Assembly: GCA_944391955.1 (NCBI GenBank)
Contig: CALXVG010000002.1
Span: 1-64,000, forward strand
DNA: 64,000 nucleotides
Source: an uncultured Clostridia bacterium
GTDB lineage: Bacteria; Bacillota; Clostridia; TANB77; CAG-508
Direction of reading: 5' to 3'
Part shown: positions 57,855 through 62,530 of the stretch, piece after piece
Numbering within the stretch: position 1 is the stretch's first letter
Layout: each line of letters begins with the position of its first letter
The notes under the pieces: generated by a model
Told to the model about the DNA's origin: nothing
The model's input: only the letters and a program-made list of their open reading frames with translations
Databases searched by the model: none
Made by a program: the position numbers and the translations under genes

Positions 57855-58175
57855 TTAAAATTCATTGTTTTTAATAAAAACGGCAAGTTTTTGCAATAAT
57901 TCACAACCAGTTTGAATTTGGTCTTGACTAAAATCAGTTAAAGTTTCTTTAGTTTTATTAACAATTGTTTCATCTTTTCCAAATAAAATATAATCAGCAG
58001 ACAAGCCTGTTAAATCGCACAAAATTTTCAACTTATTAACAGACAAACAGCTTTCACCTCGTTCTACAATACCAAGATATTGTCCAGACACACCTAACGA
58101 TTTAGCAAAAGCTTCTTTAGTTAATCCCATTTGCTCACGAATACATTTAATTCTTGCTCCAATTTCTTTTTTCAT
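57855..58175 (-). CDS. XRE-family transcriptional regulator
   Basis: A 106-aa regulator. The helix-turn-helix is at about residues 7-60: IGARIKCIREQMGLTKEAFA, KSLGVSGQYLGIVERGESCL. The C-terminal 40 residues are a helical tail with a KNNEF end. It diverges from the Spo0A-like gene across 174 bp, so it may control that gene or itself. SD AAGAGTGAT. Confidence 0.85.
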   Translation of the reverse strand: MKKEIGARIKCIREQMGLTKEAFAKSLGVSGQYLGIVERGESCLSVNKLKILCDLTGLSADYILFGKDETIVNKTKETLTDFSQDQIQTGCELLQKLAVFIKNNEF

Positions 58176-58296
58176 ATAAATATCACTCTTTTTCTTTTTA
58201 TATTTTGGTTCAATTTTACTATGGGTTTATTGTAAAGCTAAAAATAAGCAAAAAACTGAAAAGTAGTAGTGATTTTTTATGGAAAAACATGAAAAA

Positions 58297-58308
58297 ATAT
58301 GATAATAT
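58297..58308 (+). promoter_or_regulatory. Extended -10 promoter of the Spo0A-like gene
   Basis: TATGATAATAT gives TGn-TAATAT (-10 at 58303-58308); the -35 is weak. Confidence 0.4.
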
Positions 58309-58349
58309 ATTACAAAAATAAAATGTAATAAAAAATGGGGAACAAATAT

Positions 58350-59123
58350 ATGAAACTATTATTAATAGAAGATGATGTAAGTGAATGCAATATTTATAAG
58401 AAAATTGCAGACAAAAGAACGGACATAGAATTTGTAGCAATTACAGATTCTGATATTGAAGGAATAAAATATGTAAAACAATATCAACCAGATGGGATAA
58501 TCTTAGATTTAGAATTGAATAAAGGAAATGGCAGTGGAACAGGATTTGATTTTATTGAAGCACTTAATAAATTAAATCTAAAAGACAGACCCAAAATAGT
58601 TGTAACAACCAATATATGTTCAGATACTGTATATGATTTTCTACATCAAAATAAAGTAGAATTTATATTTTATAAAAAGCAAAATAATTATTCTCAAGAA
58701 AATGTAATAAATACCCTATTACTGTTAAATGGATATAAAAGTAATACAACAGCAAATGTAATAGCCAAAGATGATAAAGAAAAAGATATAATTGCTGATA
58801 AAATAAATCATGAACTTGATTTGATAGGAATTGCAACATATTTACAGGGCAGAAAATATTTATTTGACTCAATTTATTACATAATAGAAAATGGGAATGA
58901 TGATAGCAGAATAACTACAATTCAATATCTAGTAAAGAAATACAAAAAATCAAACAGTACTATAAGTAGAGCAATGCAAAATGCAATACTACATGCATGG
59001 AGAGTATCTCCATTAGAAGATTTAAGTACATATTATACAGCAAGAATAAACTACGAAACAGGGATACCAACTCCAACAGAATTTATATACTATTATGTTG
59101 ATAAAATAAAAAAGCAGATTTAA
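58350..59123 (+). CDS. Spo0A-like response regulator
   Basis: A 257-aa two-domain regulator. Receiver domain (1-120): MKLLLIEDDVSE acidic pocket, phospho-acceptor Asp53 in GIILDLELNKG, Thr in VVTTN, Lys in FIFYKKQ. The C-terminal region (about 150-255) resembles the Spo0A DNA-binding domain: LDLIGIATYLQGRKYLFDSI, SNSTISRAMQNAILHAWRV, and ETGIPTPTEFIYYYVDKI. It looks like a divergent Spo0A paralogue rather than Spo0A itself, since the recognition helix and REC loops differ. ATG 58350 is preferred over 58335 (GGGGAA SD). A terminator ends it. A sensor kinase lies downstream. Confidence 0.82.
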   Translation: MKLLLIEDDVSECNIYKKIADKRTDIEFVAITDSDIEGIKYVKQYQPDGIILDLELNKGNGSGTGFDFIEALNKLNLKDRPKIVVTTNICSDTVYDFLHQNKVEFIFYKKQNNYSQENVINTLLLLNGYKSNTTANVIAKDDKEKDIIADKINHELDLIGIATYLQGRKYLFDSIYYIIENGNDDSRITTIQYLVKKYKKSNSTISRAMQNAILHAWRVSPLEDLSTYYTARINYETGIPTPTEFIYYYVDKIKKQI

Positions 59124-59175
59124 TCATTTAAATTAATAAAATGTAAAAAAATGTTATAAAAATAGACTTTCACAA

Positions 59176-59211
59176 ATCACTTATACAAGCCAGTATAAGT
59201 GATATTTTTTT
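59176..59211 (+). terminator. Terminator after the Spo0A-like gene
   Basis: ATCACTTATAC (59176-59186) and GTATAAGTGAT (59193-59203): perfect 11-bp stem, six-base loop, then a T7 run. Confidence 0.9.
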
Positions 59212-59245
59212 AGTATCAAAACTAGAAAAAGTGGAGGTGGAAAAT

Positions 59246-59287
59246 ATGAGCTTTTGGGAATGGGTAAAATATTGGATGGGCTTATAA
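59246..59287 (+). CDS. 13-codon Trp-rich micro-ORF (candidate signal or leader peptide)
   Basis: ATG 59246 to TAA 59287 encodes MSFWEWVKYWMGL. The SD, GGAGGTGG (59233-59240), is among the strongest in the window and is ideally spaced. Three Trp plus Phe and Tyr in 13 residues make an amphipathic aromatic peptide. It lies between a perfect terminator and a 24-bp perfect hairpin whose first base is in the stop codon, and between a Spo0A-like regulator and an AgrC-like kinase. No AgrB-type processing gene is adjacent. It could be a secretion-independent pheromone, a leader peptide, or chance. Confidence 0.5.
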   Translation: MSFWEWVKYWMGL

Positions 59288-59340
59288 TTCATAAAAATAA
59301 ATGATTGAATTATTTATTCAATCATTTATTTTTATGAATT
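59286..59340. terminator. Very long perfect hairpin after the micro-ORF
   Basis: A 24-bp arm (59287-59310) is exactly complementary to 59316-59339, with a 5-base loop, and one further A-T pair outside. It can stop transcription from either side. Confidence 0.85.
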
Positions 59341-59359
59341 GTTAAATTAAATAACTATA

Positions 59360-59390
59360 TTGAATACTTTTAGATTATAGTGTATAATCT
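59360..59390 (+). promoter_or_regulatory. Promoter of the sensor kinase with palindromic -10
   Basis: TTGAAT (59360-59365), 17 nt, TATAAT (59383-59388). AGATTATA-GTG-TATAATCT (59372-59390) is a perfect 8-bp palindrome over the -10 box, an arrangement expected of a repressor site. Confidence 0.75.
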
Positions 59391-59419
59391 AAAAAAATAA
59401 GAACCAAGGAATAGTAGAT

Positions 59420-60886
59420 ATGAATATAGACTTAATAAACTTTATTATTAAAAATTATTTTATTGTAATATTTACATGTTTTATAATATTAAAATTGCTT
59501 AATTATCAAAAATATTCAATAAAAAATATATTGTTAACCATTGTATTTGCTACAATAATTTCAATAGTGTTTATAGTTACAAAATACTATATAAGTGCTA
59601 TGTTTGCTTTCATTGCACTTTTTGCAATATTAAGCATATTTACTGAAAAAATTACTAGTAATAAAACAAGTTTACCAATGATAACTGTTTTAATATCATT
59701 ATCGATATGTTTTATTACTTTTGGAATAGCAATGTCATTGAGTTATATATTTTGTAATCCAGTAGAAATGCATGATACCTTAATAGAAGTTATGAGTATT
59801 ATTTTATTTCAGGGAATTATAATATATTTATTATTTAAAATCAAAAGATATAAAAAAGGTTTATATTTTTTGCAAAAGAATAAAAACAATGAGTATGTTG
59901 ATATTATAATGATAAATATAAGTATAGTAATAATACTAGTGTATAGCCTATTTGGTAATTATCATGGAAATGCAGAACTCATAAAACCGCTATTTATAAC
60001 TCTCATTTCGCTAGGCATTATGATGATATTAATTATTCAAAAAACTTTCGTTATGCATTACAAACAAAAATTATTACATGATACAGTAAAACAATATGAA
60101 ACAGAACTAAAAGAAAAAGACAATATCATCAGAAAACTCTCAAATGAAAAATATGAAATAAGTAGAATAAATCACGAATTCTATAATAGGCAAAAAGCAT
60201 TAGAATTAAAGGTAAAAGAATTCACATCTGAAACAAGTAATGATATAGGTATTTTAGATAGAATAGAAAATCTAACAAAAGAATATTCTCAAAATTTACA
60301 AAATATAAAAGGAAAAGAGAAATTACAATTAACAAGCATACCAGAGCTAGATGATATGTTTAGTTATATGCAATCAGAATGTAAGAACAATAATATAGAT
60401 TTTAAACTGCAAATACAAGGAGAAATATATTATTTAGTAAATAACATAATACCAACAAATAAACTAGAAACATTAATAGGAGATTTGTTAAGAAATGCAA
60501 TAATTGCAATAAATTCAAGTGATAATAAATACAAAAGTATATTAACAATTTTAGGAATAAAGGAAGAATGTTATGAGTTATGCGTATGTGATAGTGGAAT
60601 AGAATTTGAAATAAACACATTACTAAAATTAGGACTAGAAAGAGCAACTACACACAAAGAAACAGGAGGAAGCGGAATAGGATTCATGACAACATTCAAA
60701 ACATTAGAAGAAACTAAGGCAAGTTTAATAATAGAAGAAAAACATGAAATGCAAGAAAACGATTATACAAAAGCAATAAAAATAAGATTTGACGGAAAAA
60801 ACGAATACAAAATAATTTCATATAGAGCAGATAGTATAAAAGAAAAATGCAAAGAAGAAAAAAGAATAATAATAGATAAAATTTAA
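59420..60886 (+). CDS. AgrC/HPK10-like sensor histidine kinase
   Basis: A 488-aa kinase. Residues 1-215 hold six or seven membrane helices, the layout of peptide-sensing HPK10 kinases. A coiled-coil (about 220-245) leads to the likely phospho-acceptor His252 in ISRINHEFYNRQ. The ATPase domain has the N box DLLRNAIIAINSS, a short CDSGIEFE (G1-like) and GGSGIGFMTTFKTLE (G2). HPK10 kinases usually sense AIP-like peptides and phosphorylate LytTR regulators; here the nearest regulator is Spo0A-like. Own promoter. SD is AAGGA. Confidence 0.82.
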   Translation: MNIDLINFIIKNYFIVIFTCFIILKLLNYQKYSIKNILLTIVFATIISIVFIVTKYYISAMFAFIALFAILSIFTEKITSNKTSLPMITVLISLSICFITFGIAMSLSYIFCNPVEMHDTLIEVMSIILFQGIIIYLLFKIKRYKKGLYFLQKNKNNEYVDIIMINISIVIILVYSLFGNYHGNAELIKPLFITLISLGIMMILIIQKTFVMHYKQKLLHDTVKQYETELKEKDNIIRKLSNEKYEISRINHEFYNRQKALELKVKEFTSETSNDIGILDRIENLTKEYSQNLQNIKGKEKLQLTSIPELDDMFSYMQSECKNNNIDFKLQIQGEIYYLVNNIIPTNKLETLIGDLLRNAIIAINSSDNKYKSILTILGIKEECYELCVCDSGIEFEINTLLKLGLERATTHKETGGSGIGFMTTFKTLEETKASLIIEEKHEMQENDYTKAIKIRFDGKNEYKIISYRADSIKEKCKEEKRIIIDKI

Positions 60887-61102: not shown

Positions 61103-61306
61103 ATGAAAAACGAAAAAGGAATGGTATTAATATCAATATATGTAGCAATAACTATTTTAGTAACTTTGCTTGCAACAATAACACAAATGTATCAATCATA
61201 CTTATTTGGTAATAGAGAAGTAACATACCAAAATGCAATTGAAACAGAAGAAGAGATGGCAGATGAGATAGAAGAATATATGAAAGAAATAGTTAACGAA
61301 ATATAA
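61103..61306 (+). CDS. Small pilin-like membrane protein
   Basis: A 67-aa protein. MKNEKGMVLISIYVAITILV looks like a class III or pilin-type leader: charged KNEKG, then a hydrophobic helix to about residue 25. It lacks the Glu at +5 of true type IV pilins. The rest is acidic and helical (TEEEMADEIEEYMKEIVNE). It precedes a larger protein with the same KG-hydrophobic start. SD AAAGGGGAG. Confidence 0.6.
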   Translation: MKNEKGMVLISIYVAITILVTLLATITQMYQSYLFGNREVTYQNAIETEEEMADEIEEYMKEIVNEI

Positions 61307-61387
61307 AAAACGAATAAATTTTCAGACGATGCGAAAAGACATTTTTAATATGATAATATATAACTAATCAACAAAGGAGGAGAAAAA

Positions 61388-62530
61388 ATGAAAAACACAA
61401 AAGGAATAACACTTATAGCATTAATAATAACAATAATCATCCTATTGATACTAACAGGAGTAACAATGAACATAGCAGTAAATGGAGGATTATTTAATAA
61501 TGCACAAAGAGCAGTAGATGATACAAATGCAAAAGTATCAAACACACAAGATAGAGTAGATGAATTAAGTGGAATATTAGATGATGTGGTAAGCCAGCGA
61601 GATGAACACAATTGGTATAGAGCAGGAGATAATCTAACCTGTAGCCATTGTGGATTAAGTTTAGTAATAGGAGATTATCTAGGATATACACCAGATACAA
61701 CAAGCCAAACAGTAACAGTAACAGCTACAGAAAGTGGAGATGAAGGAAATCAAACATTTACTCAAGAAGCAGGCAATTATTGGAAGGTATTAGGAATAGA
61801 AGATGGAGATGGAAATGGAACAAATGAAACATTACTAATAAAAAGAGTGAATCCTACAGAAACGCTATTATATTTAGCTGGGGCAGAGGGATATAACAAT
61901 GGTGTAGAGATATTAAATAAAATATGCAAAGAATTATATAGTAGCAGTAGATATGGAGAAGCAAGGAGTATAAAAATAGAAGATATAAACAATTGCTTTC
62001 AATATAAACCAACTGGTGGAACATATATGACATCCGATGGAACACTTTATGAGACAAATGGATTTAATACACAAATAAAAGATTTACCAATATGGGATGA
62101 TATAAAAGCAAATGGAACAAACACACCAGATGGAACAAACACAGAAGCTAAATTAGGTGAATATAAAATAGATGGATACGGATATATGGCAGAATCACCA
62201 TACTATTTAGTAAATCCAACAACTAAATCAAAAACATATATATCACTAACAGAAGCATACACAATATTTTATGATATTAATAGTGATTGGACACCTTACT
62301 GGTTAGCTTCTAGTGGAATTGGAGTAACGCAATGGGCTTCTGTGGCATTTGGAATTGGCATTGTAATTGGACCAGGAAATGAACCAATAATTCATTCAGG
62401 TATTCCTATGTTTGAGTCACAGCAAGACAGAATATATGGCTTTGAAATGGGGATATGTCCAGTAGTTTGCCTAAAGGATGAAATTCCACCAAAAATAAAT
62501 GGACCTGAAGTTGGTGTAAGTAATGAATGA
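61388..62530 (+). CDS. Prepilin-type N-terminal domain protein with DUF6273-like end
   Basis: A 380-aa secreted protein. The KGITLIALIITIIILLI leader is the Clostridial prepilin-type motif (cleavage after Gly; +5 is Leu-Ile rather than Glu). Residues 35-60 form a coiled-coil (FNNAQRAVDDTNAKVSN). A CxxC pair lies in LTCSHCGLS. The C-terminal 150 residues (TPYWLASSGIGV, CPVVCLKDE) resemble DUF6273, found on many surface proteins of gut Clostridia. Likely displayed on the cell surface; partner proteins are not in the window. SD AAAGGAGGAG. Confidence 0.7.
   Translation: MKNTKGITLIALIITIIILLILTGVTMNIAVNGGLFNNAQRAVDDTNAKVSNTQDRVDELSGILDDVVSQRDEHNWYRAGDNLTCSHCGLSLVIGDYLGYTPDTTSQTVTVTATESGDEGNQTFTQEAGNYWKVLGIEDGDGNGTNETLLIKRVNPTETLLYLAGAEGYNNGVEILNKICKELYSSSRYGEARSIKIEDINNCFQYKPTGGTYMTSDGTLYETNGFNTQIKDLPIWDDIKANGTNTPDGTNTEAKLGEYKIDGYGYMAESPYYLVNPTTKSKTYISLTEAYTIFYDINSDWTPYWLASSGIGVTQWASVAFGIGIVIGPGNEPIIHSGIPMFESQQDRIYGFEMGICPVVCLKDEIPPKINGPEVGVSNE

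Follow-up and report, generated by a model that had tools for sequence, protein, structure and literature searches.

Phenol-soluble modulins are leaderless amphipathic helices, and kinases of the HPK10 type lack a D-box. The agr and ComCDE systems combine propeptides and their processing with HPK10 kinases, whose sensor domains contain 5-8 transmembrane (TM) helices (PMC4873836). SIP of Streptococcus pyogenes is a leaderless peptide of 8 residues, encoded as the mature signal, that re-enters the cell and binds to RopB, an intracellular receptor, with no tie to a two-component system (PMC6565748). The cassette found in the window (the whole 64,000-nucleotide stretch analysed here) is like the agr/HPK10 systems (AgrBDCA, ComCDE) in its 7-TM polytopic kinase, its response regulator, its small peptide gene and its probable autoregulation, but it differs from them in having no AgrB or processing gene, a peptide without leader, recognition region or conserved Cys, a kinase that lacks HATPase_c_5 and carries a D-box, and a regulator that ends in Spo0A_C rather than LytTR. 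Its peptide shares with SIP the absence of a leader and a very short length, but the presumed partner is a membrane kinase; compared with the phenol-soluble modulins, which are likewise leaderless amphipathic helices, the module peptides are shorter, far richer in Trp, present as one per locus, and accompanied by a kinase and a regulator of their own. We file the module as a new variant among peptide-linked two-component systems. A search of the open literature found no published description of it, an absence that weighs little.

Table 1. Features of the cassette, in positions of the window.
Feature	Position	Strand	Basis or remark
XRE-type HTH regulator, oriented divergently from the response regulator	57855..58175	-	Pfam HTH_3, 40.7 bits
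Tandem 10-bp repeats TGGAAAAACA TGAAAAAATA TGATAATATA, putative autoregulatory operator	58280..58309	+	before the response regulator; sequence
Response regulator, receiver and Spo0A_C DNA-binding domain	58350..59123	+	Pfam Spo0A_C, 5e-15
Two weak 10-bp repeats TGTAAAAAAA TGTTATAAAA	59142..59161	+	before the micro-ORF
Hairpin and T-run, putative response-regulator terminator and/or 5' leader attenuator	59176..59212 (hairpin 59176-59203)	+	terminator scan
Shine-Dalgarno sequence GGAGGTGG	59233..59240	+	sequence; upstream of the micro-ORF ATG
Micro-ORF MSFWEWVKYWMGL, 13 aa, Trp-rich, leaderless family member	59246..59287	+	ATG 59246, TAA 59287
Near-perfect hairpin closing the micro-ORF unit	59286..59340	+	fold
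Predicted kinase promoter TTGAAT-N17-TATAAT	59360..59388	+	promoter prediction
Membrane-bound histidine kinase with seven predicted TM helices, a DHp helix and a D-box-containing HATPase domain	59420..60886	+	alignment, AlphaFold2 model

The conserved module consists of a divergent XRE regulator, a Spo0A_C response regulator, a peptide and a kinase (Table 1). When neighbouring genes were clustered across 95 loci, these four recurred and no other gene was frequent, and an XRE homologue lay divergent to the response regulator in 78 loci. An earlier sequence-only reading had described a three-gene cassette; its regulator, micro-ORF and kinase do recur, but it missed the XRE gene. In some genomes the regulator/kinase pair is present in two to six copies (L034 and L053-L057, in G030 and G034), several of the copies carrying frameshifts or stops, as if decaying. 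Palindromic GGGTCGTCGAGGACGCCGACCC elements that resemble REP/RAYT are inserted between micro-ORF and kinase at four loci (L052:10140-11175, L058, L059 and L062), the L052 copy together with a transposase-like ORF. Downstream of the kinase in the window, two small secreted-looking proteins are encoded at 61103-62530, and the N-terminus of the larger one resembles that of a type IV pilin; they are not conserved with the module.

The micro-ORF belongs to a family of short peptides. Upstream of the kinase, an ORF of 12-18 residues with a strong Shine-Dalgarno sequence is present in 95 of 100 distinct kinase loci, and a further one, MDFWEWLAYWFR (L085), was read by eye, bringing the total to 96, with the weak cases L053 and L057 counted in. 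Among the four loci that lack it, two are cut by contig ends (L060, L115), one has repeat sequence at the position of the micro-ORF (L075), and the last is the second kinase copy in L104. Such an arrangement in about 96 of 100 related gut Clostridia loci marks a real gene family. The earlier claim of a conserved coding gene was open to refutation by loss of the micro-ORF beside flanking genes that are kept, and the micro-ORF survived that comparison; its near-ideal Shine-Dalgarno sequence and its placement between regulator and kinase were also correctly read, and variants GGAGGTGA and GGTGGTGA of the former are kept across the family. All 95 peptide ORFs begin with ATG, and 94 of the 95 sequences are distinct, among them MSFWEWIRYWLG, MSFWDWVRYWFGL, MEWWEAFMRWMHYWMG, MSWYDDFLEWIRFWLF and the Trp-free MLDDLINYIRRLLGR (L063). 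The commonest pattern is W-[WYF]-[DE]-x-[FL]-W-x-W-[LIV]-[SR]-[YRK]-W-L-G, most members carry a net charge between -2 and +1, and Cys makes up 0.8% of residues in these peptides of 12-18 residues in total. At two loci (L116:1-719 and L104:260-960), units of regulator tail, hairpin and peptide are tandemly duplicated, so that two or three diverged peptides stand ahead of one kinase, a pattern that resembles signal-type diversification.

Coding statistics bear directly on the nature of these ORFs. Across the 95, Trp accounts for 19.9% of residues in frame, against 1.4% and 2.0% in the two alternative frames. The procedure used to pick these ORFs returns one with at least two Trp from 93.6% of the real intergenic regions and from 0.4% of dinucleotide shuffles. 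The hydrophobic moment is maximal at 100 degrees, the alpha-helical angle (z 19 against shuffled peptides). Substitution counts over 35 pairs of similar peptides gave a pN/pS of 0.33; since that choice of pairs is biased, the estimate was repeated with 33 pairs picked by kinase similarity, giving 0.46 (p = 5e-11), and because synonymous sites are close to saturation the true value is probably below this. The family peptides are amphipathic helices under purifying selection.

The kinase had been taken for an AgrC-like, HPK10-type protein, and only the topological part of that description holds. Its AlphaFold2 model (pLDDT 78) has seven TM helices, within the 5-8 of polytopic HPK10 sensors, a long DHp helix bearing His252, which is invariant in the alignment of the kinases, and an ATPase domain. 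A search with HATPase_c_5 (PF14501), on the other hand, gave no hit at E<=1, a weak match to PF02518 being the only one, and a D-box is present (CDSG/YDTG, with D391 and G393 invariant in the alignment); the kinase of the genome's agr locus matches HATPase_c_5 at 1e-18 and lacks the D-box at the corresponding position. Judged by its sequence, the kinase is thus not of the HPK10 type. Structure comparison, in which the matches cover the catalytic part and not the TM sensor domain, returned many kinases, with the AgrC CA domain among the tied PDB matches, and a sequence search of solved structures gave catalytic hits (KinB) only, plus coiled-coil and TM noise.

No AgrB lies in or near the cassette, as had been noted, and none is conserved in the neighbour clustering of 95 loci, but the genome does hold one, far off in an agr locus of its own on another contig (G000:C1:103000-105200, L214), with AgrB (131.7 bits), a 65-residue AgrD-like ORF and a GHKL kinase. 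AgrD-type propeptides have a leader, a cyclised core and a recognition region at the C-terminus, which the family peptides do not. Because the agr locus is separate, the peptide cassette is a second, different peptide-type system in this genome.

The Spo0A-like DNA-binding end assigned to the response regulator is confirmed by a PF08769 (Spo0A_C) match of 55.7 bits against a cut-off of 25; the receiver domain falls slightly below the Pfam cut-off, and its acidic residues, D53, T87 and K109 are conserved. The regulator resembles the genome's own Spo0A in its C-terminal DNA-binding domain, in its recognition-helix region, where S/R/A/W positions are shared, and in its putative TGTCGAA-like sites, TGTCGAA being the core of the Spo0A 0A box (PMC3485338). 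Even so, the two proteins are only 21% identical, the putative sites of the regulator come as 10-bp tandem arrays, unlike the 0A box, and its score against the TIGR02875 Spo0A equivalog is 81.3 bits where 200 are needed; the true Spo0A of the genome is a separate gene. About 7 kb from that spo0A lies a further partial match to Spo0A_C (51 bits, with one stop; G000:C18:18205-18345, L003).

The 10-bp arrays are shared by two of the genes in the module. Upstream of the peptide, G/C recurrence is 0.26 at lag 10 against about 0.11 at other lags, and upstream of 81 response regulator genes it is 0.26 at lag 10 and 0.24 at lag 20, while periodicity and repeat arrays of this kind are absent before the kinase. 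Box-like words occur at 9.7 per kb upstream of the peptide, 8.3 upstream of the regulator and 1.7 upstream of the kinase, with about 1.6 in shuffles. The boxes of the window itself are weak, AT-rich matches; elsewhere, upstream of the peptide and ahead of the hairpin, there is a 0A-box-like array TGTCGAATTT TGTCACATTT TGTCA (L040/L042) and a pair of tandem repeats TTTTTCGCCA TTTTTCGCCA (L118). A triple box occurs once in the genome in G092 and once in G104, each time before a peptide. That the peptide and regulator genes are preceded by these repeats, and the kinase gene is not, suggests an autoregulatory loop. A search with the box pattern outside the cassettes returned only scattered sites with 2 mismatches and no common gene, which we treated as background. 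Given a separate true Spo0A and no regulon detected beyond the cassette, nothing found here supports the proposed tie to cell density or to entry into sporulation.

The transcription signals likewise set the peptide gene apart. The hairpin upstream of the micro-ORF is conserved, with a recurring 3' arm motif and a mean folding z of -4.2 over 84 loci, the downstream hairpin has a mean z of -4.0 over 93 loci, and the micro-ORF region of the window has a folding z of -6.8 against shuffles. By this anatomy the micro-ORF forms a separate transcription unit between two hairpins, much as the sequence-only reading described it. The upstream hairpin lies between the boxes and the Shine-Dalgarno sequence with scant room for a promoter after it, and so it may both terminate the regulator gene and serve as an attenuator in the leader. 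Ahead of the kinase, TTG-N-TATAAT is present in 83 of 95 loci, compared with 3.75 in shuffles.

Overall, we think it fairly probable that the peptide is the kinase's signal or direct modulator and that the regulator drives peptide production via the repeats. In such a scheme, the leaderless, Trp-rich, amphipathic helical peptide would bind and modulate the neighbouring polytopic kinase, possibly from outside the cell, and the kinase, expressed from its own predicted promoter, would phosphorylate the Spo0A_C response regulator, which would in turn bind the tandem 10-bp boxes that precede both its own gene and the peptide gene. The outcome would be an autoregulatory loop, probably positive, whose threshold is probably set by the divergently encoded XRE protein. 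The pairing of peptide with kinase, already proposed earlier, is the best reading of the module. In family f5 (L040 and L042), micro-ORF and kinase occur together with the regulator absent, and in G092 (f5) the regulator is found elsewhere, beside an XRE gene and with no micro-ORF; this split indicates that it is the kinase with which the peptide stays. Distances between peptides also track those between kinases when the response regulator is conditioned out (partial Mantel test, permutation p 0.001 with either kinase half), a correlation from which shared ancestry is not fully removed, and the converse test of peptide against response regulator is weaker (p 0.058). The sensor half and the catalytic half correlate equally well, so the sensor is not singled out. 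Somewhat more tentatively, with slightly less than even confidence, we propose a new class of signalling in these gut Clostridia, in which mature, leaderless, Trp-rich peptides of 12-18 residues, made with neither a propeptide nor a dedicated processing or export protein, are sensed by a non-HPK10 polytopic kinase driving a Spo0A-like regulator that controls the peptide gene.

The strongest rival overlaps the direct-modulator half of this explanation, and about a third of the weight we give the latter falls to it: the micro-ORF would encode a membrane-bound intracellular small protein that modulates the kinase, in the way MgrB acts on PhoQ, and would be neither secreted nor involved in signalling between cells. 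Neighbour clustering over the 95 loci found no conserved transporter or processing enzyme beside the module, and a search of four genomes found EcsB, the partner in PptAB/EcsAB, in none of them, so this rival is a serious one. The absence of a leader and the near-constant pairing with the kinase fit it too, and an interfacial Trp-rich amphipathic helix would suit the inner membrane face. Nonetheless, we consider it unlikely, since peptides that differ between related species in all but one case, and that are duplicated and diverged ahead of single kinases in L104 and L116, look more like signals than housekeeping modulators. Somewhat less likely again is that the peptide is an effector rather than a ligand, a phenol-soluble-modulin-like surfactant or an antimicrobial under two-component control. 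A leaderless, amphipathic, Trp-rich peptide expressed from its own strongly translated unit under putative regulator boxes is what that account would predict, but the peptides are not cationic, which does not suit a cationic antimicrobial, a reading that was rejected; they are nearly always single copy and tied to the module kinase, whose divergence theirs follows; and no immunity or exporter gene is conserved beside them. We find it very improbable that the micro-ORF encodes a leader peptide working in cis, by Trp attenuation or ribosome stalling, on the kinase or its own RNA: a short Trp-rich ORF adjoining hairpins does recall trp leaders, but selection for the residue pattern of an amphipathic helix, the Trp-free member, the kinase's own promoter and the transposase-like ORF that separates an intact peptide from its kinase in L052 largely refute this. 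A chance ORF within a conserved regulatory RNA, which the strong flanking hairpins might suggest, is refuted by the frame-specific Trp enrichment, a pN/pS below 1 and the near-universal Shine-Dalgarno sequence and ATG.

The peptide family was seen in only one order of uncultured gut Clostridia. Kinase relatives occur in 29 of 144 related genomes and 73 of 287 genomes of the order, with 80 loci in named metagenome-assembled Clostridia whose hosts, as taken from record titles, include rabbit, goat, sheep, deer and chicken. Outside the order, 291 genomes of the class held only two distant kinases, and at the one of these with a readable gap (L177) regulator and kinase are present with no Trp-rich micro-ORF. 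A mobile or phage origin was rejected, as viral contigs and plasmids contained no kinase relatives. A scan with a degenerate DNA pattern did not find the peptide in viral contigs, and the same kind of scan across the phylum returned nothing, with a pattern too strict to bear on distribution.

Genes as short as this micro-ORF are skipped by standard annotation, and a conserved signalling component has therefore probably gone unseen in these bacteria. If the peptide is the ligand of the kinase, then a membrane kinase can pair with a ready-made leaderless peptide, and synthetic ligands of 13-18 residues, with no modification predicted, would offer a means of addressing uncultured bacteria. The family of 96 loci makes the specificity between peptide and receptor directly testable.
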